Part shown: positions 4,001 to 27,366 of the stretch, one piece after another
Position numbering within the stretch: the first letter of the stretch is position 1
Layout of the letters: every line of letters starts with the position of its first letter
Assembly (NCBI GenBank): GCA_963205275.1
Contig: CAUJIH010000080.1
Location: forward strand, 1-39,832
Reading direction: 5' to 3'
Source of the DNA: Verrucomicrobiota bacterium
Lineage (GTDB): Bacteria; Verrucomicrobiota; Verrucomicrobiia; Verrucomicrobiales; DEV007
DNA length: 39,832 nt
Made by a program: the position numbers and the translations under genes
The notes under the pieces: model-generated
What the model was told of the DNA's origin: nothing
The model's input: only the letters and a program-made list of their open reading frames with translations
The model's database searches: none

Positions 4001-6038
4001 GCTGAATTCGCCAAATCCGACCAAAATAGTGATCCCGATCCGGCCGCACCGCCGCATTCGCCGGACCGTGAAGAGGGCCACGGGTGTCATTGTGAATCAC
4101 CGCCTGATTGCAAAAATCGACTACATACAGTGCACCATCCGGCCCAACCCTATTCTCTACTGGACGAAACCAGAGATCACTGCTGCGCAGGAATTCCGTA
4201 TTCTCCCGCCCGGCCTCGCGTTCAGCCCGATAGGTCACGCCATCAGGCTTCACGAAATACTGGCTGATGATATTAACCGTCGGCTCGCCGACAAAGTAGC
4301 TGTAATTCCATTTCTCAGGCCAGGCACCACCCTCATAAATCGCACAACCTGCAGCAGCCGTATATGAGCCAACGAGATCGATCTGTCGATAGGCTTGCTG
4401 TTCCCAGTGAATCTTGGGATGCACTTTCTCCTGAACAATCATCCCGTGCCAACTCGTCGTCCCCGGAATCCCGCCCTGAGCAAGAACGAATTCCGGTAAA
4501 ACAGTGTGAAACAGCACCGTTCCGCTGGTCGGCTGCGTCCAAAAACACTGGCCATCTGAAGTCATGTCCAGCCCCCAGCAATTACCATTGCGACTGGAAT
4601 ACATCTCAATTTTACTCCCATCCGGACGGAATCGCACCACCCCCGATGCGATATTAACGGGAGTCTTATCCTCACTGCCGAGCGCGCTAATATCGCCACG
4701 ACTGTATCCGTGCGTGGCATATACCCAGCCATCGAGCCCCCAGCGCAGGTTATTCATCACCGCATGGGTGTCGAAAGTGCCGAGTCCCGAATAAAGCTTC
4801 GTTCGACGATCTGCGATTTGATCCCCATCAGTATCCTCCAGAAACCAGATATCAGGAGCAGAACTAACGATCACTCCGCTTTTGTAAAAAACAAAACTCG
4901 TCGCCAACTCGAGTCCATCAGCGAAGACGTGCTTGCGATCCATCACTCCGTCGCCGTTTTCGTCGGAGAGTATGCTGATACGATCCTGCGGTTTGCGCTC
5001 GATTTGCCCAGGTTTCAGCGAGCCACTGTCCTTCCAGAAGTCGGTGTTCGCCTTGCGCAGGCCATTGGGATATTCCGGAGTTTCCACCACCCAAAGACGC
5101 CCCTTTTCATCCCAATCCAGATTGAGAACTTTTGTGATCAAAGGTTCCGCTGCGACAAGAGAAATCGAGAACTCAGGATGAAGCTCCATCTTCTCCGCTG
5201 CCTTCTCAGGACGACTCGGCCCTCCCTCCGGATAGCGCAAAGCGATCCCTAGTTCCTCAGGCTTGCAGAGTTCATCGACATTCGTCCGCTTCCCTGCCCA
5301 AGCGATTCCACGCAACAGGATCGTGCGGATGGAATTGTGGGAAAAATTCTTGTAGAGATGACCGGGGAGGCTCACGAAGGCGCGATAGTGGTCTCGTTCA
5401 TAAGTCCAGATCTGTGGCTGAATGTCGTAGATATTCACGGCATCGACCCTCCCCTGCGGCAGACTCCCGTCCTTCGCCTTCGGAGTATAGGCTGCTGCGA
5501 GAATTTTCGCTTCTGGACGTATGTCCATGTCATAATAGATCTCGTCATTCAGGTCGAAGTTCGAGCATCCCGTGGTGATGGGATTCTCACGATCCGTGAA
5601 GTAGAGCGACAGCGGCCCTTCCAGCCACTTCGTCTGACCAAATCGCCAAGAGCCGCCAATGACGTCTCGATACCAGTCGGCATCACGTGATACGGCCCCG
5701 CCGTGGAGGACAACCAAGCCACCGCCTCTGGCGAGATACGCATCGAGATTTTTGCGATCCTGAGGCTCGATATTTCCCGCCTCTTCACTGTGGAGGATCA
5801 GAACATCCGTATCTTTCAACTGTTCTGCGGTAGGGAAGGCCGTTCCTCCGGTCGCTGTCGCCCCTCTCTCATTGAGCAAATGCTGCCAATCGGCCAGAAA
5901 GGACGGATAATCGTGTGCTCCGGGACCATGCGTCTTTTCTCCAGATCGAATAAATATCCGAAGAGGTGCGGCGAGCACAAGGACGGGGCAGAGCAGAAGC
6001 AGTAGGGATAACGGAGCGCAGAAGCGAGAAATTTTCAT
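1083..6038 (-). CDS. ThuA - PVC-type dehydrogenase - HEAT - cytochrome c - ThuA multidomain secreted protein
   Basis: A 1651-residue exported protein. The signal peptide is ~1-24 (hydrophobic run ending VLVLAA). Residues ~26-255 are a ThuA-like glutamine-amidotransferase-fold domain (GGGLVVLHGG). Residues ~285-690 are the membrane-bound-dehydrogenase domain typical of Planctomycetes and Verrucomicrobia, a beta-propeller related to PQQ sugar dehydrogenases (DWDEKGRLWVVETPEYPNG; RVGPDGALYVVDF). Residues ~695-1045 are helical, HEAT-like. A monohaem cytochrome c module follows, with CAVCH at ~1064-1068. Residues ~1210-1380 are a beta-rich domain, then a low-complexity linker, then a second ThuA domain at ~1442-1651 (MLFVHAATWSHPWEGYN). 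The likely role is periplasmic carbohydrate oxidation with electrons passed to the haem; the substrate is unknown. The in-frame TTG just before the ATG at 6038 is less likely to be the start. Sulfatases and sorAB nearby fit polysaccharide catabolism. Confidence 0.9.
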   Translation of the reverse strand: MKISRFCAPLSLLLLLCPVLVLAAPLRIFIRSGEKTHGPGAHDYPSFLADWQHLLNERGATATGGTAFPTAEQLKDTDVLILHSEEAGNIEPQDRKNLDAYLARGGGLVVLHGGAVSRDADWYRDVIGGSWRFGQTKWLEGPLSLYFTDRENPITTGCSNFDLNDEIYYDMDIRPEAKILAAAYTPKAKDGSLPQGRVDAVNIYDIQPQIWTYERDHYRAFVSLPGHLYKNFSHNSIRTILLRGIAWAGKRTNVDELCKPEELGIALRYPEGGPSRPEKAAEKMELHPEFSISLVAAEPLITKVLNLDWDEKGRLWVVETPEYPNGLRKANTDFWKDSGSLKPGQIERKPQDRISILSDENGDGVMDRKHVFADGLELATSFVFYKSGVIVSSAPDIWFLEDTDGDQIADRRTKLYSGLGTFDTHAVMNNLRWGLDGWVYATHGYSRGDISALGSEDKTPVNIASGVVRFRPDGSKIEMYSSRNGNCWGLDMTSDGQCFWTQPTSGTVLFHTVLPEFVLAQGGIPGTTSWHGMIVQEKVHPKIHWEQQAYRQIDLVGSYTAAAGCAIYEGGAWPEKWNYSYFVGEPTVNIISQYFVKPDGVTYRAEREAGRENTEFLRSSDLWFRPVENRVGPDGALYVVDFCNQAVIHNDTRGPLHGPANAAVRPDRDHYFGRIWRIQHREAKKISTPEMDQSQPETLRAALSSPNGHTRQLAFRLLREAGQEIPSVKIGSTAYQAWEAHRKVKDDADRKQIREGFLRAQDDWTRSAYLAIAHQQPLEFLRDALMTKVESKQEEALAQWAGLLTDAVLAGDKPEITAIFQSLTEGPNRVTATGTTVLDHLSAKRDLKVELSDSLTAQLLALATEPATANHVLPLVVRWDSGGRMKSKIADMVAELAEALQNTSAPVGDRIKVASLLARTDTEEAKKSLLTILTKEGENRELQESIVRELGENGSADALVRSWSRIVSRLRGRAFGEIVKRPEAALALLDGIASGQVKHAELGPGNIARLRTHPDAAVAKRAGEMLDQLLPGTKEKSAIIAKLLPDVSKLGDAVKGRVLFEAACAVCHRYGALGKLEVGPSLTGMGSHGVAELLSHIVDPNREVDPSFWQWNITLKNGDALAGVIVRENPSGFTLRNQGGDIEVKKEDVAKRENTFRSLMPEGLESLGAEGLRNLLSFLSAEDGRYRVVDLRDAYTADSRRGLFQSADTRNDSVFPVRFGNIRSHEIPFYLMEAKTSTTGRNLVVLKGGREGAAAVGYPQKVTIPVNLPATRFYFLSGIAGWGFPAIRDARPVLKVTVTHQDGTTEVTELKNGVEFADYNREIQVPGSILTEGVVSRGQARIITLPVRPGSAVKSMTLESYDNQISPVVMAITADLSTGASPVETVSKNEMKTAPKARAEKNPDLNAQPSASAKIDLSKEAPTSIAATGMHFIEPRPTSDTIRVLLVGSGSSHHFPRDFIAADVALLRNQPKTDVAGTMNLDEALRLMPQADVLVFSGNHDQWGTAPFQKALHDFADAGKGMLFVHAATWSHPWEGYNQRFIQGGTKAHGRGEVTTDVAAIQHPVMKGLPETFQIADESYHFSFFENSSATVLAVNRPDGKSPESHPALWVVKDSKARIVCYTHGHDDASHDNPNYRLILENAVRWVSERH

Positions 6039-6167
6039 CAACTAGAGATCAATCGAATACGCTCAGGCTATCGCAAGAGGATACGCGAATCAATCTTCCC
6101 GAACTCAAAACAGACGCTAAACGAGAGCGTGATCGCGTTCCGGAATCAGGAAAATGTCTGAGTCAAT

Positions 6168-8326: not shown

Positions 8327-11300
8327 TCACCTCTCGATTAAAAACAGAGTTGTTCCACCCGGCTCGAGCACCGCTTTAAATCGTCCGTCTTTCACCGCAT
8401 ACTCCGATCTCGAGAACAGCTCCTTCACTTTGAGACAGTCTTTTCCGACGAAAAAACTCCGCTCGCCACCGCTCAGACTGTGGACGGCAAAGAGATTTCC
8501 GGAAACATAGGTAACATCTTTTTCCTGCTCGTTCACTACCGGCACCTTTGCAAGTCGGGCGATCTCTCGCAGCAATCCGGAGGAAAGCGTGGGGGCAGCA
8601 GAGTAGATCGATGTCCAATCGGAGAATTTTTTCACGGACAACGCCCCCCCGCCATTCTCTACATACACTCCCTGAACGTCTCCGTTGAATACACCGAAGC
8701 GAGGCGTAACGACGTGTGAATCGCCGTAGTTCATCACGACTCCAGCGGCTTTCATCCCTGTTCCTAGCGGCTTGGCCGCACCATCCATCTGTACCAAGAG
8801 TGATCCGTCCTCGACGGGGCGAACGTCGAAGCCCGTTACCTCAGCGATCCTCGTCGCATCAAGTGAGGTCTCGGCTCGCGGCCTCCCCTGCACCGGCTCG
8901 AGAATCCCCGGTGCATAGATCCAGACGAGAACCTTGCCGCTCCGCTTCAATTTTTCTTCGATGAAGCGCTTTTGCTGGGCGGTAAGATCGAAGCAGTTCA
9001 AGAACAAATAACAGGGATAATCGGGAATTGATTCCAAATCGCCCGCCAGGTATGCATCCCAAGCAATACCCATCCCGTTGAGAGGATTGATCTGATTGTT
9101 TACGGCGGCATTCTGGATCGGGGAATTTACCTTGCAGTGAAGAATCGAAGTCTCGCTGACGACGACAGCAATCGAGTGTTGCGGATCAACGGCCTGGCGC
9201 GGAGCGTGTAGGAGTTCAGACTCGATTTTTTTCATCTGTCCCACCGCTTGCATCAGGCGCTGATCGCCGGTGATCCATCCGTTCCCGAAGTCATACCACT
9301 GTGGAGCGACACCGTTGACAAGGCAATTCGCAAACTCACGCCGCAGAACCTCAACACTACCCGCCAGTGAGGGAATACGTGAAATCTGACCGCTTGGCCC
9401 CGTTCCCCGGAAGGTGCGGATGTCGATCTGGTCGATGTAGAGCTTTCCATGGAGCTTACAGGCATCCACGGTCGTCATAAAGCCAGTTCCATCTCCGAGA
9501 CTGCGATACCCGTAGCGCGAGGGCGACATGAGAAAATCGATCTCTGGAGACTCAAGCACTTTCTGAAGAGCAAAATGACCGGAATGAACACCGAAGTAGG
9601 CATAGCCGATGTACATCACATACCCATAGTAGGTGCCGCAGATGGATTCGCCCTGCGTCTCCTCCTTCACGATACGGCAAAAGTGAAGCACATCATCTGA
9701 AACAAGGTGGGCAATGAAGGCATGCAAATCGATGACCGCACCCTGCGTTTTCGGATCGAGAAAGAGATGGGGATTCGCGTTATCTCGTTCGGCTCGCGTT
9801 GGCACAGTGATTTCATCAAAGCTGGAATAGTGCCGATTCCAAGCCCTGTTCAGTGCTTCGATTTTACCGTCATAGATCTGCCTCAGCCAAGAACGAAAGG
9901 CGCGAACAAACGGTGCCGAATAGTCCAGAAAGTCCTTACTTTGCGATCCCCAGTAAAACCACTCCCAGGAGATTCCCGAGATCGGAACATAGCCGATCAC
10001 TCGTCCTGCATGGGGACCTGTGCGCACATGGCGAATCAACGCCCGCCAAGCCTCCCCCGCGTCACGCAACCAGACTTCGGATGCATAGGAGGGAGCACGG
10101 ATCTTCGAACCGCGATAGCCACCGACATTCGTATCACCGTCGTCTTTGCGGGCCAGTTCATCGGGATACAAATTCAACCACTCCCGCATTCCAGGATTGT
10201 AAACGGGATCAAGCGGCACATTGAGCACGATACGAGCCTCTGGATGAACAGCGGCGACCTCCGCCAATCGCAGATCGAGTTCGGAAAAGTCAGGAGCTGC
10301 ATCCGGTTTCCATGCAAAGCCCTGCGGCAGATTTAGCCAGAGGACCTCGATCCCGGCATTGCGAGTATTTTCGAGGATGCGCTCGTCCATCTCCGCTGTT
10401 GTCCGCATCGTCAGCACATGCATGGGTGAAACCGTCTCTCCATCGATTTCCAAGCTCGGAATCCTTCCCGGCAGATACTTCAGCCGACACACGGCAGGTT
10501 TCGGGAGAGCAGTAAATGTGGGTACTGCTTTTACCTCAGGGGCTGAAGTGGAGGTTGTGGCGGATGCAGCAATCGCATCAGGCCTCGCTTCTGCCAGCAG
10601 CGAAACGGAAATGAGTTCCAAAGTCCTTCCCATTTCGACGGGCAAGGAGATCTGGGCATAAGCAGCCAGTGGCTCGACCTCTAATTTTGCCTCCGCCCGA
10701 TGCCAGTCCTTCGTGATCAACTCAGAGAGTTTCAGTTCGTGTTTTCCGATCGACTCGTGAAATACGTTAAAGATCTCCACGGTAACCTGCGGCATCACAT
10801 CCCCTGACCACTCAAGAGCGAGTCGATGCGCACCGGTTTCAGGAAGCTCAAACATCGCACTGCGAATCGAAGCGCCCTTCGCAATCCCTGTTGCTCTCAA
10901 AGCATGACCCGATTCCTCACGAGCAATCAGCACCAGCGTCAAACCTTCAAAAATCCAAGCACTGGGCGTTCCACCCGCTGTATCACTCCATTCGAAATTG
11001 CCGTTCTCCACTAGGTTCCCGGATTCGCTCGCCACAAAGCGCAGTCCTCTCAGAGCGATTTTTGCTCCGGCTGGATTCAGTGGATCGAAACGGACTTGAG
11101 CGACATGTCCTTTCCACCCCGCATAGGCGGAAAGGTCGACTCGATAGGTATGGAACTGCCCATCACCCAAGATGGAGAAACTGATCTGGCGCTCTCCACT
11201 GAAGCCCTCGCTCTGGTCTCGAAAAAACAACTCGCCACCCCCGCCTGTATCACTTTTTAGCCTGAATTCCAAGAAACGCCTTTCTCCGGCCTCCAGAGAG

Positions 11301-11527
11301 AGCAGCGGAGAAATCAACTGCGCGTCATATCGCGTCGTCCCGCGTAGCTGGCCATCCTTCACCATCGTCGACTCAAAGTTCACCGCTTCCCAGCCGAGCA
11401 GGTCTCCTGAGACATCCCAGCTCCAGGAGAATTCTGCGCTGAGAATCGGTCCTCCTGAGAAAGCAATCCAAACCAGAGCAGCACAAAGAATCGAGAAAGA
11501 TCGAAGCCGGGTTATCAAGAGAGCCAT
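8327..11527 (-). CDS. Large secreted glycoside-hydrolase-like protein (GH42-like TIM barrel)
   Basis: About 1066 residues from the chosen ATG, which gives a clean signal peptide (MALLITRLR, then a hydrophobic run to PILSA). Open reading continues upstream to ATGs at 11548 and 11599, but these only lengthen the n-region. Residues ~33-340 are beta-rich with two carbohydrate-binding-like modules (one begins NLVENGNFEW, as in jelly-roll modules). A TIM-barrel glycosidase-like region follows (~375-770: GIEVLWLNLPQGFAW; GYVPISGISWEWFYW; GKLYIDQIDIRTF), then a trimerisation-like Rossmann domain (FLNCFDLTAQQKRFIEEKLK) and a C-terminal beta domain. This order matches GH42 beta-galactosidase-like proteins. 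The acid/base candidate is the Glu in SWEW; the expected nucleophile Glu is not obvious (YIDQIDIRT). Catalysis and substrate are therefore uncertain. Confidence 0.75.
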   Translation of the reverse strand: MALLITRLRSFSILCAALVWIAFSGGPILSAEFSWSWDVSGDLLGWEAVNFESTMVKDGQLRGTTRYDAQLISPLLSLEAGERRFLEFRLKSDTGGGGELFFRDQSEGFSGERQISFSILGDGQFHTYRVDLSAYAGWKGHVAQVRFDPLNPAGAKIALRGLRFVASESGNLVENGNFEWSDTAGGTPSAWIFEGLTLVLIAREESGHALRATGIAKGASIRSAMFELPETGAHRLALEWSGDVMPQVTVEIFNVFHESIGKHELKLSELITKDWHRAEAKLEVEPLAAYAQISLPVEMGRTLELISVSLLAEARPDAIAASATTSTSAPEVKAVPTFTALPKPAVCRLKYLPGRIPSLEIDGETVSPMHVLTMRTTAEMDERILENTRNAGIEVLWLNLPQGFAWKPDAAPDFSELDLRLAEVAAVHPEARIVLNVPLDPVYNPGMREWLNLYPDELARKDDGDTNVGGYRGSKIRAPSYASEVWLRDAGEAWRALIRHVRTGPHAGRVIGYVPISGISWEWFYWGSQSKDFLDYSAPFVRAFRSWLRQIYDGKIEALNRAWNRHYSSFDEITVPTRAERDNANPHLFLDPKTQGAVIDLHAFIAHLVSDDVLHFCRIVKEETQGESICGTYYGYVMYIGYAYFGVHSGHFALQKVLESPEIDFLMSPSRYGYRSLGDGTGFMTTVDACKLHGKLYIDQIDIRTFRGTGPSGQISRIPSLAGSVEVLRREFANCLVNGVAPQWYDFGNGWITGDQRLMQAVGQMKKIESELLHAPRQAVDPQHSIAVVVSETSILHCKVNSPIQNAAVNNQINPLNGMGIAWDAYLAGDLESIPDYPCYLFLNCFDLTAQQKRFIEEKLKRSGKVLVWIYAPGILEPVQGRPRAETSLDATRIAEVTGFDVRPVEDGSLLVQMDGAAKPLGTGMKAAGVVMNYGDSHVVTPRFGVFNGDVQGVYVENGGGALSVKKFSDWTSIYSAAPTLSSGLLREIARLAKVPVVNEQEKDVTYVSGNLFAVHSLSGGERSFFVGKDCLKVKELFSRSEYAVKDGRFKAVLEPGGTTLFLIER

Positions 11528-11822
11528 TGAGGAGTTACTCACGATCATTTCCGAAGCGGAACAAGTGAAAATCAAGATGCAGATTTCATCGAAGGACATG
11601 CTAGCGCCAGCGATGGTAGGAAGCGTGATGCGGTCTCTTACGCATCTACGCCACGCAACTAAAGACGGATTACGGGATTTTCACTTGTGAATCCATGGAG
11701 AACTCTGTTTCATCTTGAACGCTATTCTTCTGACATCACGACTTCTTCTGACATCAGGCTTCGCTCGTATCCTGATCCGGTGATACCGCGATACGACAAG
11801 CCCGCTCGGCCCTACGGAAAAA
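11528..11822. other. Divergent intergenic region between GH42-like gene and sulfatase operon
   Basis: A 295-base stretch between two divergently read units, so it should hold the promoters of both. No convincing coding frame was found apart from the alternative upstream starts of the minus-strand gene. It contains a 14-base direct repeat (listed separately). No clear -35/-10 pair or riboswitch was recognised. Confidence 0.5.
11725..11756. repeat. Spaced 14-base direct repeat upstream of sulfatase operon
   Basis: TTCTTCTGACATCA occurs at 11725-11738 and again at 11743-11756, so the copies are 18 bases apart, under 70 bases before the sulfatase start. Near-two-turn spacing would suit a dimeric regulator, but a chance local duplication is equally possible. 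Confidence 0.55.
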
Positions 11823-13451
11823 ATGACCACTTCCCCTTCTCTTCTCCCGACGATGCTACTCGCATTGCTCTCCTCGCTTCTCCTAGGAAAGGCGCAAGGT
11901 GACGTCGTGGAGCGACCGAACATTCTATTTTGTATCGCCGACGACGCCTCTTGGCAGCACATGAGCGCCTATGGGAAAGGTTACAACTGGGTCAAAACCC
12001 CCAACTTCGACCGAATCGCATCCGAGGGTCTCCTCTTTACACACACCTATACACCTAACGCAAAATGTGCGCCTTCTCGCGCATCCATCCTGACGGGACG
12101 GAACCCTTGGCAACTGGAGGAAGCAGGCAATCACAACTTCTATTTTCCGGCGAAGTTCGTCACCTTCGTCGAAACTCTCAGCAGAAACGGCTACTCCACC
12201 GCCTACACAGGCAAAGGCTGGGGACCGGGAAATGCGGGCACCTATGAAGACGGAAGCCCACGAATGCTTACCGGAACTGAATTCAACCAAAAAAGATTGA
12301 CTCCACCCACGTCTGGAATCGGTCGAATCGACTACCCAGCCAACTTTCAAGCATTCATGGACGAGCGTCCGAAGGACAAGCCCTTCTTTTTCTGGTACGG
12401 CGGACACGAACCGCATCGAAAATATGAATACGAATCCGGAATCAAAAAGGGCGGTAAAAAGATCTCTGACATCAAGAGCGTGCCTCCCTACTGGATCGAT
12501 AACGATGTCACAAAAACGGACATGCTCGACTACGCCTATGAGGTGGAATACTTCGATCAGAACTTGGGAAAAATCTTGGCGATCCTAGAAAAGAGCGGTC
12601 AGATGGACAACACACTCATCCTCGTGACATCGGATAATGGGATGCCTTTTCCTCGTGTCAAAGGCCACGTATTCGAGTACGACAACCACTCACCACTGGC
12701 TCTGATGTATGGAAAGAAGATTGCGCAGCCCGGTCGAGTGATCGACGACTACATCAGCTTCATCGACTTCGCACCTACCATGCTCGATTTCGCCGGGGTG
12801 AGCGAGAAACAGGCAGGCATGGAACCCATGCAGGGCCAGTCCATTCGCGACCTGATCCTGCCATCCGAGAGAGAATCGCGCTATAAAAAGCGCGATCACA
12901 TACTGCTCGGTCGCGAAAGAACCGACGTAGGGCGCCCTCACGATCAGGGATATCCGGTGCGAGCGATCCTAAAAGGCGACTTCATCTATCAAAAGAACTA
13001 CGAACCCAGTCGCTGGCCCTCTGGAAATCCTGAAACCGGGTACATGGACACCGACGGCAGCCCGACAAAGACGGAAATCTTACAAGCGAATCGCGAAGGA
13101 AAACATCCGGAGGTCTGGGAACTGAGCTTCGGGATGAAGCCAGCAGAGGAGCTGTACAACATCAAGGAAAATCCTGATAGTACTCACAATCTAGCCTACA
13201 ACCCCATCTATGAAAAAGTGCGGGCCGAGCTATTCGCACAGATGGAAGCGGAACTCCGAGAACAGGGCGATCCGCGCATGTTCGGTCGCGGCTTTCTGTT
13301 CGATAACTATCCCTACGCAGCCGAAGCGAGCCGAAACCTTTACGAGCGCTATATGCGAGGGGAAAAAATGAAAGCCGGATGGATCAGCGATACCGACTAC
13401 GAAACCCTGCCGGGCAGTAACGAACAGGAATTAACACGCGACAAGCGATAA
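11823..13451 (+). CDS. Secreted type I sulfatase, N-sulfoglucosamine sulfohydrolase-like
   Basis: A 542-residue sulfatase with an N-terminal signal peptide (~1-26, LLLGKAQG). Metal-binding residues are visible in LFCIADDASW (D40, D41), the formylglycine precursor cysteine is C82 in CAPSRASILTGR, followed by a conserved-lysine region (TGKGWG, K131), GGHEPHR (H195, H198) and TSDNGMP (D271, N272). The sequence around the active site and the short GGHEPHR motif resemble heparan N-sulfatase (SGSH, S1_8-like) rather than arylsulfatase A types; that subfamily call is by eye. It needs a formylglycine-generating enzyme or anSME, not found in this window. It is the first gene of a two-gene unit, followed after 8 bases by the metallo-beta-lactamase-fold gene, and faces away from the GH42-like gene. 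Likely substrate: N-sulfated or O-sulfated amino sugar in glycans (inference). Confidence 0.9.
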   Translation: MTTSPSLLPTMLLALLSSLLLGKAQGDVVERPNILFCIADDASWQHMSAYGKGYNWVKTPNFDRIASEGLLFTHTYTPNAKCAPSRASILTGRNPWQLEEAGNHNFYFPAKFVTFVETLSRNGYSTAYTGKGWGPGNAGTYEDGSPRMLTGTEFNQKRLTPPTSGIGRIDYPANFQAFMDERPKDKPFFFWYGGHEPHRKYEYESGIKKGGKKISDIKSVPPYWIDNDVTKTDMLDYAYEVEYFDQNLGKILAILEKSGQMDNTLILVTSDNGMPFPRVKGHVFEYDNHSPLALMYGKKIAQPGRVIDDYISFIDFAPTMLDFAGVSEKQAGMEPMQGQSIRDLILPSERESRYKKRDHILLGRERTDVGRPHDQGYPVRAILKGDFIYQKNYEPSRWPSGNPETGYMDTDGSPTKTEILQANREGKHPEVWELSFGMKPAEELYNIKENPDSTHNLAYNPIYEKVRAELFAQMEAELREQGDPRMFGRGFLFDNYPYAAEASRNLYERYMRGEKMKAGWISDTDYETLPGSNEQELTRDKR

Positions 13452-18158: not shown

Positions 18159-18282
18159 GGCGAAGTATCGAAATGGCGGCGCGATTTTCAAGCGGATTCA
18201 GAAGTCTATAGACATTTGAGCGGCATATCCGCGCCGAAAGGAGCGCTTGACCGTCGTGAGAGCAGATTCTTATCTTGTTCTC

Positions 18283-19704
18283 ATGAGAATCTTACCACCA
18301 CCCCTACTCACTCTTTTCCTCCTACTCACGGCATGGCAGATGAGCTTATCGTGTGCAGCAGACGGAAAGGCTCGGGCCACGCAACCCAACTTCGTCGTTA
18401 TCTTCTGCGATGATCTGGGATACGGTGATCTATCCTGCTTTGGACACCCCACGATACGCACACCCAATCTGGATCGCCTAGCCCAAGAAGGGCAGAAGTG
18501 GACGACCTTTTATGCAGCCGCCAATGTCTGTACGCCCAGTCGGGCCGCACTAATGACGGGACGTTATCCGATCCGCAGCGGGATGACATCAGATGCGAAT
18601 ACCGTCCTCTTTCCCGACTCGACAGGTGGTCTCCCCGCATCGGAGATCACCATCGCTGAAGCGCTGAAAGATCTCGGCTACGCCACCGCCTGCGTTGGCA
18701 AATGGCATCTCGGACATCTCCCTCAGTATCTACCAACCCGAAACGGCTTCGACAGCTACTTCGGCATCCCTTATTCCAACGACATGGATCGAGTCGATAA
18801 GAAGACCTCTCAATTCGAACTGGCGGAACAAGAGCAATTCCAAGCATACAACTGTCCTCTGATGCGCGATGAGAAAATCATCGAACGGCCGACCGACCAG
18901 CGCACCCTCACGAAGCGCTACACCGAAGAAGCGGTAAAAAAAATCCACGAGCTGAAAGATCGTCCATTTTTCCTGTATTTAGCTCATAACCTGCCACATA
19001 TCCCGTTATTTCGCTCCTCTGGATTCAAAGGGCACTCCCCTGCTGGAATCTATGGTGACGTGCTGGAGGAAATCGACTGGTCCGTCGGTCAGGTCGCTGC
19101 AGCGCTAAAAGACATCGGAATTGAGAAGAATACGCTGCTGATTTTCACCTCGGACAATGGCCCTTGGCTGACATTCAAGACCCATGGAGGCAGCGCTGGA
19201 CTGCTACGCGACGGAAAAGGTAGCTCTTGGGAGGGCGGACACCGCGTTCCGGCGGTCATGTCCTGGCCAGGAACGCTCTCACCGGGAATCGTGTATCAAA
19301 TGGGCAGCACGCTCGACCTGCTCCCGACCTTTGTGTCTCTCGCAGGTGGAACTCCGCCTCAAGACCGAATTCTCGATGGATATGATCTCACTCCCACACT
19401 GAAAGGCACCGGCCCCAGCCCACGCGAGGAAATGTTTTTTTACAAGGGAGCGCAACTCTATGCTGTGCGCAAAGGTGACTACAAAATCCACTTTGCCACA
19501 TACACCGCCTATGTGAAGCAGGAGCCAGTCGTTCACGATCCGCCGCTACTCTACGAGATCAATCACGATCCAGCCGAGCGCTTTGATATCACTCCTGAGC
19601 ATCCTGAATTACTCGAAGAACTCAAAGTGCTCGCCCAAAAGCATCGGGACTCCGTTATTCCCGTACCCGATCAACTCGCCTCACGCACGCGTCGCAACAA
19701 CTGA
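18283..19704 (+). CDS. Secreted type I sulfatase (arylsulfatase A-like)
   Basis: A 473-residue exported sulfatase. Signal peptide ~1-26 (LLTLFLLLTAWQMSLSCAA). Metal site FCDDLGYGD (D43, D44), formylglycine precursor C83 in CTPSRAALMTGR, GKWHLGH (K140, H142), AHNLPHIPL and TSDNGPWL follow in the usual order, and the C-terminal subdomain carries LYEINHDPAERFDI. The sequence is close to arylsulfatase A / cerebroside-sulfatase-like bacterial enzymes (S1 family), acting on sulfate esters in the periplasm or outside. The TTG at 18247 in the same frame would add 12 residues before the signal peptide and is unlikely. It converges with the next sulfatase, 32 bases apart at their 3' ends. Confidence 0.92.
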   Translation: MRILPPPLLTLFLLLTAWQMSLSCAADGKARATQPNFVVIFCDDLGYGDLSCFGHPTIRTPNLDRLAQEGQKWTTFYAAANVCTPSRAALMTGRYPIRSGMTSDANTVLFPDSTGGLPASEITIAEALKDLGYATACVGKWHLGHLPQYLPTRNGFDSYFGIPYSNDMDRVDKKTSQFELAEQEQFQAYNCPLMRDEKIIERPTDQRTLTKRYTEEAVKKIHELKDRPFFLYLAHNLPHIPLFRSSGFKGHSPAGIYGDVLEEIDWSVGQVAAALKDIGIEKNTLLIFTSDNGPWLTFKTHGGSAGLLRDGKGSSWEGGHRVPAVMSWPGTLSPGIVYQMGSTLDLLPTFVSLAGGTPPQDRILDGYDLTPTLKGTGPSPREEMFFYKGAQLYAVRKGDYKIHFATYTAYVKQEPVVHDPPLLYEINHDPAERFDITPEHPELLEELKVLAQKHRDSVIPVPDQLASRTRRNN

Positions 19705-19736: not shown

Positions 19737-21098
19737 CTATCGTTCCGACTGAACCTCTAGCTCCCAGGATTTCACTCGCTCGAACAGCCTCTTCGCATCT
19801 TCCGTCCGCGTTGGCTTCAGATCCATCGTCTCACCAGGATCCTTCGAAAGATCAAAGAGCCACTCCTCCTTCCCCTCCCCTGCATCGTCTCGCTGAACCC
19901 ACTTCAGATCACCGGATCGGATCGCTCTCCACGTGCGATTCCCTCGTCGTGCCCGCCAAAAAAAATCCCGATCCGGCCACTTCTGCCCCCTCCGCAGATC
20001 AACCAATATCGGATAGCCATCCAGAGCTCGACCTCCAGGCGGATTTGCATCGGCAATCGCGAGAAATGAAGCCGTGAGATCCATCAGCATCCAAGGCTGC
20101 TCATTGATCTGTCCAGCCCTGATCTTCCCGGGCCAGCGCATGATCACGGGCACTCGAATTCCGCCCTCGAAGAGCGTTTCCTTCGCATCTCGGAAAGGAG
20201 CGTTCGAGCCAGGAAGCATCGCTCCATTATCGCTGGCGAACACGACCAGAGTATTCATTGCCGCCCCTGTCTCGTCCAGTGTCGACAGAATCTTCCCAAT
20301 CGCAGAATCCAGACTCTCGATCATGGCCACATAATTCGCACGCGTACCCTTCGTCCACTCCTCAGCAGTCGGCAAAGGCTGAGCTTCCACACCGGGCGGG
20401 CGAAATGGAAAATGTGGAGCAGTGAAACTGAGGAACAGAAAAAAAGGCACTTCCGGCTTCTGACTACGAAGCCAAGCGCTTCCCTCGTCACGAATGAGAT
20501 CAGTCAAATATCCTTCTCGCTTCACAGGATTTCGGTCTTCGTAGAATACCGGTAACTCGGAAAGCTCGACATGCTCGTAATAGTCTACATTTCCACCCAG
20601 AATTCCGAGGAAGTGGTCGAAGCCCTGATCCAGCGGATTAAATTTTGGCTCATAGCCCATGTGCCACTTGCCAAAAATCGCAGTCCGATATCCGACGGAC
20701 TTAAGCCCTGGAGCCAGTGACGCCATTGGCGGCGGCAGTCCCAAGTCATTCTGCGCACGCAGACGGATCGCATCGTCATAGCGTCCCACATTTCCCGTCC
20801 CCACCGGACACTCCATTCCACCGGGTCGCTGTGGGTGCCGCCCCGTCAGAATCGCCGCACGCGACGGCGTGCATTCCGGCCCATTGGAATACGCCTGCGT
20901 GAAGCGCACCCCCTCTGTCGCAAGCTTGTCCAGATTCGGCACCCTCACATCCTTTGCCCCATAAGCGGGCAAATCTCCGTAGCCCAAATCATCAGCAAGA
21001 ATCAAAATGATATTCGGACGCAACTCCGCACTCACGCTCGTCAGAGGCAATCCTCCGATCAGAAGCCAGCAGAGCGGAATGAGTCGGAGTAGTCTCAT
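19737..21098 (-). CDS. Secreted type I sulfatase
   Basis: A 453-residue exported sulfatase. Signal peptide ~1-24 (LIPLCWLLIGGLPLTSVSA). Active-site elements in order: ILADDLGYGD (D36, D37), C76 in CTPSRAAILTGR, FGKWHMGYE (K144, H146), SFTAPHFPF and FASDNGAM, then EGGIRVPVIMRWPG and the C-terminal LFDLSKDPGE. It is a family S1 sulfatase; the subfamily and substrate are not resolved. It lies 61 bases downstream of the TPR gene at 21160 on the same strand, so read-through from the ExbB-ExbD-TPR operon is possible, although nothing functional links them. Confidence 0.92.
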   Translation of the reverse strand: MRLLRLIPLCWLLIGGLPLTSVSAELRPNIILILADDLGYGDLPAYGAKDVRVPNLDKLATEGVRFTQAYSNGPECTPSRAAILTGRHPQRPGGMECPVGTGNVGRYDDAIRLRAQNDLGLPPPMASLAPGLKSVGYRTAIFGKWHMGYEPKFNPLDQGFDHFLGILGGNVDYYEHVELSELPVFYEDRNPVKREGYLTDLIRDEGSAWLRSQKPEVPFFLFLSFTAPHFPFRPPGVEAQPLPTAEEWTKGTRANYVAMIESLDSAIGKILSTLDETGAAMNTLVVFASDNGAMLPGSNAPFRDAKETLFEGGIRVPVIMRWPGKIRAGQINEQPWMLMDLTASFLAIADANPPGGRALDGYPILVDLRRGQKWPDRDFFWRARRGNRTWRAIRSGDLKWVQRDDAGEGKEEWLFDLSKDPGETMDLKPTRTEDAKRLFERVKSWELEVQSER

Positions 21099-21159: not shown

Positions 21160-22245
21160 TCACTTCTTCTTTTCCTTCGCGTCCGGAATTGAAGCCTTTG
21201 CATCCTCCTTTGCTGGAGCATCCTTTGCCTCTGACTTTTTCTCCCCCGCCTTTGCTCCATCCGCAGTAGCAGCAGGTTCGGCAGATGTTCCTTCACTTAC
21301 CTCCGGCAACTGGACCTCTGGTTTCACTGCATACTTCTGGAAATTCGCAGGCATAGAATCCTTGCCAAAGCGGCGTGCATACATGTATGCGAGTCCCTTG
21401 AGCTGCTCGACTGCGACTTTATTATCCTCCGCCACCTTGGGATCGGAAATCTGAATCTGCATCGCTCCCCCCATGGCGAGCTTTGAAAGCAGCACGTCAT
21501 TCCCGAACGCCACCGTAAAAGCGCGATAGTAATCATCCAGTGCCTTGCTCTTTTCACCCTCGGATTCAAAGACCTTCGCCCGGAGAAAGGCGATCTGAGA
21601 AATTTCATTTGAAGGCATCGACACAAAGTTCGGCGCCTTGAGTAACTTTTCACTTCCCGTCGCCGTTTCCTGATAGATCGCCAGCGCCTCTTTCAGCTTC
21701 GACATATCATTCGCACCGAACAGCGCCCACAGCTTCAGAAATGCAAGTGGTCGGCGATATACCTCAGGCAATTTCGTATTGATCGTTTCCGCCTGAGAAG
21801 TATTCACCAACGGACCTAATGCCCCATACTGACCTGCCCGCTTGAGACTCTCTAATTGATAAAACAGCGCTTCCGTCGCGAAGTTCATCGGAATTCCCTG
21901 AATGAATGCATAATCCTGCGCCACTTTTCCGAATGCGGCGGCGGCAGCCACATAATCTTCTTTCGCAAACAGATCCCGCGGCGATATCATCAGATCGTTT
22001 TTCTCTGAAAAGCGAATCTGCTTCCCGAGTCCCTCTCCATTGATCTTCGAATAAGGAATCAACTGGGCTTGGCCGCCTGACGAGGGCGAAAAGAGAATGC
22101 CTTCATTGTTGCTCCCCTGAATGTATCCTTGGGGATTTGCACCATCCACTTGTGAAAGTGATCCCGGAGTCTCGCGAACTTGGGCCGCTAGCAATGCAGG
22201 GATCAGAAAAAGTCCCCAGGAAAATACATGACACAGTGATTTCAT
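21160..22245 (-). CDS. Secreted repeat-like protein with acidic/basic low-complexity tail, last gene of ExbBD-TPR operon
   Basis: A 361-residue exported protein. The start at 22245 is chosen because it gives a clean signal peptide (HVFSWGLFLIPALLAAQ) and is preceded by a GGGAG sequence 8 bases upstream. The body is helical with TPR-like pieces (FAKEDYVAAAAAFGKVAQDY; SEGEKSKALDDYYRAFTVAFG), and the last ~50 residues are a highly charged Ala/Glu/Lys/Asp tail, probably disordered. No family is recognised beyond TPR-like. Its start lies ~30 bases after the stop of the 1047-residue TPR protein, so the two are almost certainly co-expressed and may interact in the periplasm. Confidence 0.82.
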   Translation of the reverse strand: MKSLCHVFSWGLFLIPALLAAQVRETPGSLSQVDGANPQGYIQGSNNEGILFSPSSGGQAQLIPYSKINGEGLGKQIRFSEKNDLMISPRDLFAKEDYVAAAAAFGKVAQDYAFIQGIPMNFATEALFYQLESLKRAGQYGALGPLVNTSQAETINTKLPEVYRRPLAFLKLWALFGANDMSKLKEALAIYQETATGSEKLLKAPNFVSMPSNEISQIAFLRAKVFESEGEKSKALDDYYRAFTVAFGNDVLLSKLAMGGAMQIQISDPKVAEDNKVAVEQLKGLAYMYARRFGKDSMPANFQKYAVKPEVQLPEVSEGTSAEPAATADGAKAGEKKSEAKDAPAKEDAKASIPDAKEKKK

Positions 22246-22253
22246 TCTGATAT

Positions 22254-22258
22254 CTCCC
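22254..22258 (-). promoter_or_regulatory. Ribosome binding site deciding the start at 22245
   Basis: On the coding strand GGGAG ends 8 bases before the ATG at 22245. The alternative in-frame starts (TTG at 22275, ATG at 22260) have no comparable sequence and lie within or just after the upstream stop. Confidence 0.6.
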
Positions 22259-22275
22259 ATTGTTTGAATCTTCAA

Positions 22276-25200
22276 TTATTTCGGAGAAATGCCCAGCTCA
22301 TTCATGATCTTAGCCTCTTCCTCCGGTGTCACATTCAATTCGGCTTTCAACTCCGGAATCCGACGTCGCAGCCGCGCCAGCGCTCCCGACGGAGAATCGT
22401 TCTCGTCCGTCCAACCCGACCAAGAATAGATATACTTCACTGAGAGCTTATACAGGGCCAGTTTCCTCTTTCGCTTGAGCGCGATCGAGAGCGGATCGGT
22501 TTCCGGCTCTTTCTCAATCTCAGCCAGACTGTTCGGGATATAGCGCTCCCAAGCCTGAGTCAACCAATCGTGGAAGCCTGAATACGTTCCCAAGACAGAA
22601 ACATACGCTTGGTTGGCAGCCGCGTGATCGCCCAATTCATCAAAAACTACCCCAAGCTTGAAGGCAGCCTCGGCACGTCTCGCTTTCTCGCGAGCAAAGA
22701 GGTCTTTGTCTCGGTTGATCTCCTGAAGAACAGGTAAGGCCTCTCGCCATTCCTTGTTCTGCATATGCAGATCAGCCAAATTAAGATAGGCCATCGCCTT
22801 GAGTGGCTGAGCGTCTTCACTCTTATCTTCGATAATGCGACGAAAGCGCTCGCGAGCAGACTGCTTTTTAGCGGGATCTGCCGCTCTCATCTCAATCTTG
22901 CCGAGTTCCATCTCAGCAGGAGCCTTGTAGGAAGCAGCAGCCGGAGATGTCCGCGCCAACAATTCCTCAAAGTAGGGCACGCCGAGGAAAGGGTTATCTG
23001 TTCCGGCGAAGTAAAGCCCGATCTGCTGTAGCGCGTATTCGGTCAGATCGCGCTTCTCGAACTGACGTAAATCTTCAAAGATCGCCGCAATTTTGCTCTC
23101 GATAGCCGCGTATTCAGGCACGTCTTTCGCGATCCCCTTGCGAGACTCCTGCAGGACGATCACCTGCTGAATCTTCAGCCAAGTCTGCATGGCCTGATCA
23201 CCCGTTTCGACTCCAGGAAAACTGTTTAGAGTGGCTAGTGTCTTCTCCACTCCTCGGAGCCGCACGGATACTTCGCTATACGTCCCGATACACTCACGCA
23301 ACAATTGCACATCCTGCATCTCTGCCGGGCGCGTCCCCACCGCCACGATCACCTTCTCCATCTGGCCGAGTCCTTCCTCCCCGCGTCCCGCCGCTTCCAG
23401 ACGAGGGAGTGAAAAGGCGGTGAGTTGAGGCTCAAAAAACGTACCAGTATATCCGGCGATGAAATCATCATACTGAGCCAAGCCCTTTGCATCCTCCTTC
23501 GCTTTGAAATATTGATCAGCGGATTTCCACAGAGCCTCCCCTACCGCCTCTCGATAGAAGTCAGCATTCTTCGAATCACTCTGCTGCGCCGCTTTTCCGG
23601 CAATGACCGCAGCCAGATAAGCATCGACCGCCGACTTCGTCAGATCGGCTGCTTGATCAGCCTCTTCTTTCGGCAGACGGGAGGCCTGAATCAGAAGCGC
23701 ATCGCCACGCAGATTCTGAGCACGAGCCACCCGAGGTGAAACAGGACGCTCTGCGACTAACTTATCAACTGCGGCGATGGATGCGGGAAAATCTCCCAAA
23801 TTAAACCGAGCAACTGACAGATCCGCCAGAATAGAATCCAAGAAGCGTTCAGAACTTGGATACTCTTTGAGAAAATCCTCACACTGCTCGGCGGCTTCAC
23901 GCATCTTTCTGAGGATGAGAGAATCACTAGCACGATGATACATCACAACCTCTCGATTCTCACCTTTGGGGTAATTCTTTATGTACTCGGTAAAAGGTTC
24001 CTCCGCCTCCTGATATTTTTTGGTTGCGAAGAGAGCTAATGGATAGAGCGCATCCGCTAGCTCACGCTTCTCCGCTCCCGGTTCGAAAGTCTTCCGCACT
24101 TCCTCAGCCACGCGAATCACCTCATCATACTTCTGTGATGTGAACAGCGAGGAAAGCATGAAGGAGGAAACATTCGAGCGCAGATTGCTGTCCGTCGGCG
24201 CTTCTGACATAAACTTTTCTCCGAAATACTCAGATCCCGAGAAGTCACCGAGCGCTGCCGAAAGCCGCGAAGCCTCGTGCAGAACCTCATCCCGGACTTG
24301 AGTGGGCAGCTTGGGATACTGAGTCGCTAGATTCCAATAGATAATGCGGGGAGCATAGAAATTCCCAAGACGTTCGTAACAGCTGGCGATAAGTCGCAGA
24401 GTCTCAGCATCGGGATGCACCTCCGCCTCTTCCCGTTTCGCCAGATCATTGATCAGCGCTTGAACCTGAGAAGGTACCGTCGCTCCATATGGAAGCCGGG
24501 CGATATTCAGATTGATGTCGTCACGAATATCCTGAATCGTGGGCAGGTAGGAAAAATAGCGCAGAGCGAGAGAGTAGAGTCCCACTTTCGTCGATTCAAA
24601 ACCCAACTTCTTCAGGCGATCCACGAAGCCGAAGCGGAACTGATCGAAGGGTCCCATGTGCAAGGAGGATTCGTTCTTGTCCAGAAACTCGTGCCCGCTC
24701 TCAGAAATTTTATCAATCGCCGCAGTATCACCGGAGGCAGCACTCGCCTCCTCAGTCAAGCCCAGTCCGAGTTCGAGAACACCCTGCATAAGAAAAACGG
24801 GGGTTACATCCCATGCTTTGGCGTTGTCGAAGAGTTCCTGAATCAGTTTGCGACCTTCATCCATCCGCTTTAGGTGAATCAAGGAAGTCGCATAGCGCAG
24901 TTTGAAGCTGTTGCGCATCTGCTCCACTTCTTCCTGGGGAGGATTCGCCGCCATATACTCGTCATATAGCTTCAGAGCCTCCTCGTGATTCCCTAGCTGG
25001 GCTTCACAATACCCAAGCTGATACTTGGCCAAAACTCCTCGCGGATTCTTCGTCCGCATCGGAGTCTGGACATCAGAGGCAATCTTGTCCGAATCGATAC
25101 AATCAATGAAGGCCTGTCTCGCCCTCTCCCAGTCTTGAACGATCAGCAAGGCTACGCCGTAGTCGAACATGACCCCGCCGGCAGCGGCACCAAAGTCTTC

Positions 25201-25419
25201 ATACAAGCGCTCTTTTCCCTTCGAGATTTCCAGCATCTTATCAAAAGTAGCTACCGCTTGGGCTGCCTGCCCAGACCCACTCAATTCCACAGCCTTTTGA
25301 TACAATTCCTCAATCGCGTCTCCGCCAGTCGCCTGTGCAAAGGCATGACTTCCAGAAAAGGAAATTAAAAAGGAGAGCGTGACACTCGCGGCGAAACGGA
25401 ACAAACAAACACTCTTCAT
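22276..25419 (-). CDS. Large secreted TPR-repeat protein of the ExbB-ExbD operon
   Basis: A 1047-residue exported protein with a signal peptide (~1-28, FLISFSGSHAFAQA). The rest is almost entirely helical tetratricopeptide-type repeats: for example AVELSGSGQAAQAVATFDKM near the N-terminus, LGYCEAQLGNHEEALKLYDE (~135-155), ALFATKKYQEAEEPFTEYIK and FNLGDFPASIAAVDKLVAE in the middle, and AFKLGVVFDELGDHAAANQA near the end. Such solenoids are protein-binding scaffolds. It sits ~90 bases downstream of the second exbD gene and just upstream of the second TPR-like gene, in a five-gene co-directional set. The natural guess is a periplasmic partner energised by, or controlling, the ExbB-ExbD motor. Start at ATG 25419; a TTG directly before it is in frame. 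Confidence 0.88.
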   Translation of the reverse strand: MKSVCLFRFAASVTLSFLISFSGSHAFAQATGGDAIEELYQKAVELSGSGQAAQAVATFDKMLEISKGKERLYEDFGAAAGGVMFDYGVALLIVQDWERARQAFIDCIDSDKIASDVQTPMRTKNPRGVLAKYQLGYCEAQLGNHEEALKLYDEYMAANPPQEEVEQMRNSFKLRYATSLIHLKRMDEGRKLIQELFDNAKAWDVTPVFLMQGVLELGLGLTEEASAASGDTAAIDKISESGHEFLDKNESSLHMGPFDQFRFGFVDRLKKLGFESTKVGLYSLALRYFSYLPTIQDIRDDINLNIARLPYGATVPSQVQALINDLAKREEAEVHPDAETLRLIASCYERLGNFYAPRIIYWNLATQYPKLPTQVRDEVLHEASRLSAALGDFSGSEYFGEKFMSEAPTDSNLRSNVSSFMLSSLFTSQKYDEVIRVAEEVRKTFEPGAEKRELADALYPLALFATKKYQEAEEPFTEYIKNYPKGENREVVMYHRASDSLILRKMREAAEQCEDFLKEYPSSERFLDSILADLSVARFNLGDFPASIAAVDKLVAERPVSPRVARAQNLRGDALLIQASRLPKEEADQAADLTKSAVDAYLAAVIAGKAAQQSDSKNADFYREAVGEALWKSADQYFKAKEDAKGLAQYDDFIAGYTGTFFEPQLTAFSLPRLEAAGRGEEGLGQMEKVIVAVGTRPAEMQDVQLLRECIGTYSEVSVRLRGVEKTLATLNSFPGVETGDQAMQTWLKIQQVIVLQESRKGIAKDVPEYAAIESKIAAIFEDLRQFEKRDLTEYALQQIGLYFAGTDNPFLGVPYFEELLARTSPAAASYKAPAEMELGKIEMRAADPAKKQSARERFRRIIEDKSEDAQPLKAMAYLNLADLHMQNKEWREALPVLQEINRDKDLFAREKARRAEAAFKLGVVFDELGDHAAANQAYVSVLGTYSGFHDWLTQAWERYIPNSLAEIEKEPETDPLSIALKRKRKLALYKLSVKYIYSWSGWTDENDSPSGALARLRRRIPELKAELNVTPEEEAKIMNELGISPK

Positions 25420-25512
25420 CAAAAACTATCAGTTATCATCAGATTTACAGACCTCCGGAAGATCGAAGAATCATCGGAAGCCCGCTAATATTGGAAAAAC
25501 AGAAACCTGAAT

Positions 25513-25968
25513 TCACTTCTCAGAGAATCCAGTGATCGTTACCTTACTGATGTTGACACTCGGGTCAGCGAGTGCGTTCAACACATCGATAAAACGCTGC
25601 CCCTTCGCTGAGTCATCGGCCTTAATAATCACCATCGGCTCCGAACCTGTCAGCTTGGCTGCCTCAACATACGTATGAAGTCGATCCAGAAGGAGTGGGA
25701 CCTCCCGCGAGGAAGCGTCGGTATCGAGCACCTCGTCGTTCATCACCACATGTCCGGCAGAATTGACATTGATCGTTGTCATATCAATATCAACATGTTC
25801 ACTTCCCGCAGCTGCCTGACTCGTCGGCATTGTCATGGCCAGATCCGCTTCCGTCGGCTCCAAAGTGGAAGTAACGAGGAAATAAATCAGCAGCAGGAAG
25901 CTCTGATCGATCATCGGAGACATATCCAGAGCCGGATCCGGCTCAGAGGGAAGAGGTTTGCGCGCCAT
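25513..25968 (-). CDS. ExbD/TolR-family protein (second paralogue)
   Basis: A 151-residue protein with one transmembrane helix (MIDQSFLLLIYFLVTSTL, ~19-36) containing the proton-path aspartate D21, preceded by the family-typical LDMSPMID. The periplasmic C-terminal domain (~60-151) ends in MVIIKADDSAKGQRFIDVLN, like the ExbD/TolR peptidoglycan- or partner-binding domain. In the family it forms the rotor or plug with an ExbB/TolQ/MotA pentamer, using proton flow to act on periplasmic partners. Gln follows the Asp, where its paralogue has Met, so the two copies are divergent. It starts 26 bases after the stop of the first exbD. Confidence 0.92.
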   Translation of the reverse strand: MARKPLPSEPDPALDMSPMIDQSFLLLIYFLVTSTLEPTEADLAMTMPTSQAAAGSEHVDIDMTTINVNSAGHVVMNDEVLDTDASSREVPLLLDRLHTYVEAAKLTGSEPMVIIKADDSAKGQRFIDVLNALADPSVNISKVTITGFSEK

Positions 25969-25994
25969 AAATCTTGGGAGAGGGTAAAAATTAC

Positions 25995-26450
25995 TTACTT
26001 TTCATCCTTTTCGACTGTGAGACTGCCGAAGATCACCTCATTCACCCCAGCTTTTCCAGCCGCCTGAACGACCTTTTTGATTACACGGGTATCCACCTTT
26101 TTGTCCGCTCGCAAATTGAGCCGAGTTGTCATTCCCTTATCATCGTTCGCCTTTTTGATCGAGTCCACGTAGTCTTCAATCGCCTCCGAAGTCGGTAGAT
26201 CCTCTTGGTCATACCCAAACACACTTCCGTCTTCCAATACATTGATCACGATTCGCCCTGTCGTATCCTTGGCGACTTGTGCATTCTTTGCTGTCGGAGC
26301 ATTGACCCGTCTGTCAATCTGTACAGTGATCAGGTGAGAGGCGACCATGAAAAAGACGAGCAGCAGGAACGTCATGTCGATCATCGGCGACATGTCCATC
26401 GGCACTCCATCCTCATATTCGGGAGTTGCTCGTTTTTTTGTTGAAGCCAT
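25995..26450 (-). CDS. ExbD/TolR-family protein (first paralogue)
   Basis: A 151-residue protein with a short cytoplasmic N-terminus, DMSPMID at 19-25 and a single transmembrane helix (MTFLLLVFFMVASHLITV) carrying the conserved D25. The periplasmic domain shows the family pattern (RIVINVLEDGSVFG; TTRLNLRADKKVDTRVIKKVVQAAGKAGV). It is expected to work with the ExbB homologue encoded upstream. The gap to the exbB-like stop is 67 bases and to the next exbD 26 bases, all in one direction. The N-terminal region is charged (KKRATPEYEDG), unlike the second paralogue, which supports different roles in one complex. Confidence 0.93.
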   Translation of the reverse strand: MASTKKRATPEYEDGVPMDMSPMIDMTFLLLVFFMVASHLITVQIDRRVNAPTAKNAQVAKDTTGRIVINVLEDGSVFGYDQEDLPTSEAIEDYVDSIKKANDDKGMTTRLNLRADKKVDTRVIKKVVQAAGKAGVNEVIFGSLTVEKDEK

Positions 26451-26517
26451 GGTACCTAAAGAAGGTCTGGTTCAGAGTAATTGCATTGGAATCCCGAAAG
26501 GGGTCAAGGTCTCGCAA

Positions 26518-27366
26518 TCAGGCTCCCGCGATTCCTTCCGGCACACGTGCCAGCATCTGATCTGCTTTAATCGCTTTAATTGCCTCGTCGACGCCTTCGA
26601 TTACAACCTGTTGAGCATCGCTGACCAACCTGTTATAGCGATTTTTAAAGGCATAAAAAAGGAAAATTGCGGGAATGGCGATTACTAGGCCCCCTGCCGT
26701 AGTGATCAGAGCCAGCGAGATGTTTCCTGCCAGAGCACCAGGATCGGAACCACCACTGAGTCCCATCGAATCGAAGGCTAACACCATCCCCGCGACCGTT
26801 CCAAACAACCCCAGCATCGTCGCGCCCTGAGCGATAATTGAGAGATAACCGATCATCGTCATCATCCCGAGATTCTCACGCACGGTGAAGTCAGCGATCG
26901 CATCTTCGACTCCTGGACGCCCCAGATTTTCTGTATCGGTTGCATCCACCTTCATATAGGCAACGGTAATCAGACGTCCGAGGAAGGAAGGGTCTTGCGA
27001 AGCAGTTTCGATGGCGCTACGCACCTTCACTTCACTCATATCCTCCATGATCGTAGCCCTCAGCGCGTTGGGAATATATTTTCTTCGGGAAAGCTGAAGG
27101 GTCAGAAAAACAGAGAGGGTAATCGCCCAGACCGAAAGCATACCAATCGGCACCATGAATATCCCGCCCCCGATGATCATATCCATCAGTGTGGTGGGTG
27201 CCTTTGTTGGCTCGTCACTACCACTGCTGGCAGCAGCAACGGGATCAGCAGCAGGGGCATCCTGACTCCATGCACGGGGCGAATTCAGGGTCAGAAACAA
27301 GGAGGTCCCGACGGCGATCAGGAGAAAACGGCGAAAGATTCCGGGAAGGGTCAGATTCGAAGACAT
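26518..27366 (-). CDS. ExbB/TolQ/MotA-family proton channel protein
   Basis: A 282-residue inner-membrane protein. From ATG 27366 it has an N-terminal signal-like hydrophobic segment (~12-30, ending PRAWSQD), an Ala/Ser/Pro-rich stretch, then the MotA/TolQ/ExbB core with three transmembrane segments at ~64-90, ~168-200 and ~215-240. The signature LGLFGTVAGMVLAF (185-198) and ALITTAGGLVIAIPAIFLFY (219-238) are typical. A cleavable-looking extra N-terminal segment is common in ExbB relatives outside the Enterobacteria. It is the first gene of the operon and would form the proton-conducting stator for the two ExbD proteins. The upstream in-frame start at 27420 adds 18 residues with no support. 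Confidence 0.92.
   Translation of the reverse strand: MSSNLTLPGIFRRFLLIAVGTSLFLTLNSPRAWSQDAPAADPVAAASSGSDEPTKAPTTLMDMIIGGGIFMVPIGMLSVWAITLSVFLTLQLSRRKYIPNALRATIMEDMSEVKVRSAIETASQDPSFLGRLITVAYMKVDATDTENLGRPGVEDAIADFTVRENLGMMTMIGYLSIIAQGATMLGLFGTVAGMVLAFDSMGLSGGSDPGALAGNISLALITTAGGLVIAIPAIFLFYAFKNRYNRLVSDAQQVVIEGVDEAIKAIKADQMLARVPEGIAGA

Follow-up and report, generated by a model that had tools for sequence, protein, structure and literature searches.

The described systems closest to the locus reported here are MUL1 of Akkermansia, the gliding motor of Myxococcus, a class of motors in PVC bacteria, and the ExbBD-TonB and Tol-Pal systems. According to secondary papers, the accumulation of mucin products inside Akkermansia muciniphila depends on mul genes that encode pili and complexes of periplasmic proteins (PMC12418764; PMC13174399); in these papers, the need of MUL1 for glycan accumulation in internal compartments is described for this species only. 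A figure legend in PMC11790493 marks CAZymes as Mul1A-associated. No MUL1 synteny was found in aquatic Akkermansiaceae, and MUL1 was taken as a gut, mucin-specific adaptation (PMC13174399, 2026), the same paper placing Luteolibacter mostly in freshwater. The gene content of MUL1 as used here is drawn from synteny and secondary papers. The channel of the Myxococcus motor is AglR, with AglQ and AglS as the ExbD-like proteins, and output has been proposed to run via GltG (PMC3169522). The PVC arrangement TPR-TolQ-TolR-TolR-vWA contains vWA force transducers, and no deletion phenotype is known there (PMC12204202).

The window, i.e., the whole stretch of 39,832 nucleotides analysed here, carries on its minus strand a tight set of five co-directional genes, all located where a first-pass annotation had placed them. 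The first gene, exbB (26518–27366, ATG at 27366), encodes a MotA/TolQ/ExbB channel of 282 residues with an N-terminal signal-like segment (Pfam MotA_ExbB, 1.2e-21). It is followed by two genes for ExbD/TolR-like proteins of 151 residues each: exbD1 (25995–26450; Pfam ExbD, 2.4e-19), of lineage D1 with the motif FLLLxFF, and exbD2 (25513–25968; Pfam ExbD, 1.7e-17), of lineage D2 with the motif FLLLIYF. TPR1 (22276–25419) is a Mul1A-like secreted TPR solenoid of 1047 residues with many Pfam TPR matches, and TPR2 (21160–22245) is a Mul1B-like secreted protein of 361 residues with a signal peptide, a beta domain and a TPR-like superhelix. The gaps between the genes are 67, 26, 93 and 30 bp in this order, and no terminator-like site was found on the minus strand in any of the four. 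The same gene order was observed at all 13 congeneric loci checked, and the operon is therefore not a product of chance. The composition proposed earlier was confirmed: a single channel is combined with a pair of divergent ExbD paralogues and a pair of secreted TPR proteins. Searches of the window for Rfam families and for tRNAs were negative.

TPR2 had no match in a Pfam search and appeared from this to be an orphan, a status overturned by an NCBIfam match and by folding. The protein matched NF052542 (mucin_mul1B_fam, 'Mul1B family putative transporter subunit') at 5e-15 and 55.5 bits, below the cut-off of 75. This model also matched in all 24 high-quality genomes of the window's genus, in one case above the cut-off (81.6 bits), and the 14 control genomes gave no match. 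Of 387 sampled genomes of the phylum, 33 had matches above the cut-off, all from seven genera of f2, one family of the window's order that is taken here as Akkermansia's family. Its genus g2 is taken to be Akkermansia because the g2 ExbBs cluster with the ExbBs from two records that bear the name Akkermansia. In profile–profile comparison of the window's genus with f2, the TPR1 profiles matched at 2.2e-75 (929 columns) and the TPR2 profiles at 4e-26 (291 columns), both nearly full-length, with cross controls between Mul1A and Mul1B profiles at 1e-5 or weaker; sequence identity of the window TPR proteins to their Akkermansia-family counterparts is only about 20%. In the window operon, the gene for the Mul1B family protein immediately follows that for the large secreted TPR protein, and directly upstream of this pair lies an exbB-exbD1-exbD2 set orthologous to that of Akkermansia. 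The large TPR protein may be read as the published Mul1A because it adjoins Mul1B. Akkermansia MUL1 and the window operon thus share five genes in identical order, homologous TPR proteins and motor, and ExbBs of one clade, whereas the window operon belongs to another family, has a TPR2 below the cut-off, is flanked by pyrE/pyrF upstream and a sulfatase downstream, and probably has a substrate other than mucin. Judged from sequence and gene order, the window operon is a MUL1-type locus that lies outside Akkermansia's family, in another family of Verrucomicrobiales.

How widely this operon occurs was surveyed with synteny profiles built from congeneric proteins and from f2 proteins. The complete order exbB-exbD1-exbD2-TPR1-TPR2 was found in at least 33 loci, a figure that is not a census: the window and 13 congeners, three paralogous loci (L055, L056 and L113, the last from an uncultured Verrucomicrobiales) and 16 f2-type loci. 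The f2-type loci include those of Akkermansia sp. (L110, L111), of Luteolibacter sp. (L109) and of members of g2, g10, g14, g16 and g17; L109, L110 and L111 are among the matches listed in a scan of named genomes for ExbB with a generic motif, likewise no census. TonB and its receptors were not the usual partners in this neighbourhood survey, and the TPR genes were co-conserved with the motor in the 33 loci. At four f2 loci (L096, L099, L100 and L102), the TPR–Mul1B pair was observed with no MUL1-type motor alongside. This distribution argues against MUL1 being restricted to Akkermansia, a finding that looks new relative to PMC13174399. Within the limits of the habitat information on the carriers, the presence of the full operon in Luteolibacter, in four genera of f2 other than g2 and in another family also speaks against the gut- and mucin-only view. 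With the complete operon known from Luteolibacter, from five genera of the family of Akkermansia and from this second Verrucomicrobiales family, MUL1 has the look of an ancestral importer of glycans that became adapted to mucin later, and the data suggest that the MUL1-type system is a general Verrucomicrobial glycan importer rather than a gut speciality. The earlier description of the system as incompletely described stands in part: a MUL1 genetic phenotype has been published for A. muciniphila, and it is the mechanism, the distribution and the link to PVC motors that are not described in the accessible literature. A Verrucomicrobial-type TPR-motor locus was also seen in L132, a record titled Blastochloris sp. 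(Pseudomonadota), which is probably a misassigned genome bin.

In a tree of 59 ExbB sequences, the MUL1 ExbBs of the window's genus and of f2 formed one clade (100/99), which is adjoined by the ExbBs of L055, L056 and L113 (99/95). Matches in the whole window genome number eight for ExbB and nine for ExbD, and six other sampled ExbB genes of this genome fell outside the MUL1 clade. ExbD1 and ExbD2 were found to constitute two separate lineages (100/99 each). Because each of these clades holds both families and the paralogues, the ExbD1/ExbD2 pair is, on this phylogeny, older than the split of the two families. A proton-binding Asp is present in the TM motif of both ExbD1, which was aligned with E. 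coli ExbD, and ExbD2; the same place of the motif is occupied by FF in ExbD1 and YF in ExbD2, and ExbB keeps both TolQ Thr positions. These data fit a fixed ExbD1–ExbD2 heterodimer, which may be part of a 5:2 motor. An extra exbD2 copy of the D2 lineage lies between exbD2 and TPR1 in 4 of the 13 congeners (L043, L044, L045 and L049), and this third ExbD occupies the slot where paralogous loci have a transducer. Directly upstream of exbB in L043, an ABC ATPase and a protein of about 266 residues with no Pfam match are encoded (L043:13905-15436), a position that they do not occupy in the window; similar pairs occur in several congeners (L044–L049), that of L043 being the only one annotated.

With moderate confidence, the window operon is taken to encode a MUL1-type energised, proton-driven glycan-uptake machine, probably for sulfated glycans. 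The first-pass annotation had proposed an energised, TonB-independent envelope machine with no TonB, TonB receptor or Tol-Pal gene nearby, and this picture was borne out: the TonB_C, TBDT plug and OmpA/Pal domains of the genome are all on other contigs, the contig of the window (C80) has no TonB or TonB-dependent receptor as a neighbour and no OmpA/Pal domain, and the operon has no TolA, TolB or Pal gene. The operon shares with ExbBD-TonB and Tol-Pal the ExbB/TolQ and ExbD/TolR superfamilies and the catalytic Thr and Asp, but differs from them in its two distinct ExbDs, its large TPR solenoid and the lack of an adjacent TonB, TolA, Pal or receptor gene. Two TonB_C proteins (on C78 and C32) and four plug-domain receptors (on C6, C11, C47 and C52) are encoded in the genome, and the ExbB–ExbD set could be an accessory energiser that powers them, with the TPR genes being incidental. 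This is very unlikely, as both TonB genes adjoin exbBD sets of their own, the MUL1 ExbB clade excludes the ExbBs beside TonB genes, and neither the TonB-free contig nor the co-conservation of the TPR genes with the motor in 33 loci favours it. Alternatively, the operon might encode a general envelope-maintenance motor of the Tol-Pal kind, which would coordinate remodelling of the outer membrane and peptidoglycan with CpoB/YbgF- and BamD-like TPR proteins and would make the uptake defect in Akkermansia indirect. ExbB is indeed closest to TolQ models, and TPR1 has matches to ybgF (2e-14) and BamD (1.3e-9), but these are far below cut-off and of a generic TPR nature; with the OmpA/Pal domain missing from the contig, TolA, TolB and Pal missing from the operon, and glycan accumulation as the published A. 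muciniphila phenotype, such a motor is unlikely.

The glycan-uptake reading also has to be set against a parallel with the AglQ-AglR-AglS gliding motor, which had been drawn from gene arrangement. The parallel was found to extend to motor composition only, the TPR partners belonging to the Akkermansia MUL1 family. AglRQS-Glt likewise combines one TolQ-like channel and two TolR/ExbD-like proteins with periplasmic TPR partners, the Glt complexes including TPR proteins (PMC3169522), and the channel and two ExbDs of the window could in principle drive a periplasmic TPR track in gliding or surface transport. The TPR partners match the MUL1 family rather than Glt, however. At the level of NCBIfam models, the operon proteins gave no match to a Glt model, neither Glt proteins nor the TonB-like GltG were recognised, and the TPR partners look unrelated to those of Glt; GltE was matched only once in the window, by a weak TPR hit in another gene (0.0041). 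Since, moreover, no motility has been described for the Akkermansia carriers, A. muciniphila being non-motile (PMC12418764), a gliding function is highly improbable.

The AlphaFold model of TPR1 is a single long all-helical solenoid (pLDDT 88.3, pTM 0.52), and that of TPR2 comprises a small beta domain, then a TPR-like superhelix and a disordered tail (pLDDT 87.3). Both proteins are predicted to be periplasmic scaffolds. Fold searches with the two models returned generic TPR superhelices only; a Campylobacter periplasmic flagellar scaffold appeared at a middling rank in these searches and is given no weight as functional evidence. Viral contigs were searched for relatives of TPR2, and none were found.

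A second kind of TPR-associated motor is encoded on contig C103 of the window genome (L032, 5430–12039), in the order of a TPR protein (956 residues), a 315-residue protein, exbB, exbD, exbD and a TM protein with a TM-helix His and a DxSxS vWA motif, as in the PVC arrangement introduced above. The TPR protein of TPR-QRR-vWA-type loci matched MUL1 TPR1 of the window's genus at 8.1e-36 over 845 columns and the f2 MUL1 TPR protein at 9e-53; as a control, the congeneric TPR1 profile does not detect the 956-residue protein of C103 at 1e-3. The protein of about 300 residues (315-residue type) of TPR-X-QRR loci matched Mul1B at 1.6e-14, and its homology to Mul1B can be called no more than probable, given a TPR-against-TPR control at 1.2e-12. 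The paralogous loci encode TonB-like transducers with a TM His (L055:5180-8133, L056:4937-6562 and L113:7771-9327). L056 and L113 have the MUL1 gene order with the transducer between exbD2 and TPR1, and L055 has two transducers after Mul1B, with a common SAM domain, TM helix and linker and a different C-terminal domain. An alignment of 11 transducers showed an invariant TM His and a variable C-terminal domain, with a vWA motif in several and a weak PA14 match in one (L105). No TM-His vWA-type transducer is present in the window operon, and likewise no transducer in the Akkermansia MUL1 operon. The window operon and the PVC TPR-QRR-vWA motors thus share a homologous large TPR protein, one channel with two ExbDs and probably a Mul1B-like partner, whereas in the PVC motors the TPR gene precedes the motor and the locus carries a TM-His vWA-type transducer, which the window operon lacks.

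From these profile comparisons, MUL1 looks to belong with the PVC 'TPR-QRR-vWA transducer' motors, a link that itself looks new, no report joining them having been found in the partial literature. It connects a locus that has a published phenotype with a large group of PVC proton motors for which none was reported. That group gains a testable function from the link, and the kinship points to a possible mechanism by which polysaccharides are taken up selfishly without TonB. A broader and more tentative proposal is that of a PVC-wide superfamily of proton-driven glycan importers, built from a large TPR protein, a Mul1B-like protein, ExbB and an obligate ExbD1/ExbD2 heterodimer and, in some members, a TonB-like transducer with a C-terminal vWA or PA14 domain. 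Such a superfamily could have diversified by substrate as an alternative to SusCD/TonB for selfish uptake, and loss of the transducer in the MUL1 branch might have left the ExbD heterodimer to drive the TPR solenoid without an intermediary. Stand-alone transducer candidates (on C101 and C96 of the window genome, and a PA14-type without TM His in Akkermansia) were not assignable to MUL1. Two unlinked g2 proteins (L202:5584-6981 and L203:5433-7412) have a transducer-like TM helix and linker but lack the TM His; neither genome has another match of this kind, and each protein is possibly a missing MUL1 partner.

As for the mechanism of the window operon, five ExbB subunits would surround the ExbD1/ExbD2 heterodimer, and proton flow would turn or cycle the ExbD pair, whose periplasmic domains would act on the Mul1A solenoid. 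Because the window operon, unlike the paralogues, carries no TonB-like transducer, the motor may act directly on the TPR proteins or borrow a transducer encoded elsewhere. Mul1A and Mul1B would form a platform in the periplasm that carries enzymes for glycan degradation and assists in pulling large glycans, probably sulfated ones, through the outer membrane. Once in the periplasm, these glycans would be trimmed by sulfatases and glycosidases. Sulfatase domains were matched 35 times in the window genome, twice in one gene, which corresponds to about 34 genes; the genome also encodes an Amuc_1098-family pilus protein that scores above cut-off. Counting against the glycan-uptake reading, the organism of the window is no known mucin degrader. 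Three sulfatase genes lie in the window (11823–13451, 18247–19704 and 19737–21098); their inclusion in the unit was dropped, as no congeneric locus has a homologue of them beside the operon. Elsewhere in the window, a 1652-residue protein with ThuA and DUF7133 domains (1083–6041) and a GH42-like protein (8327–11599) are encoded.
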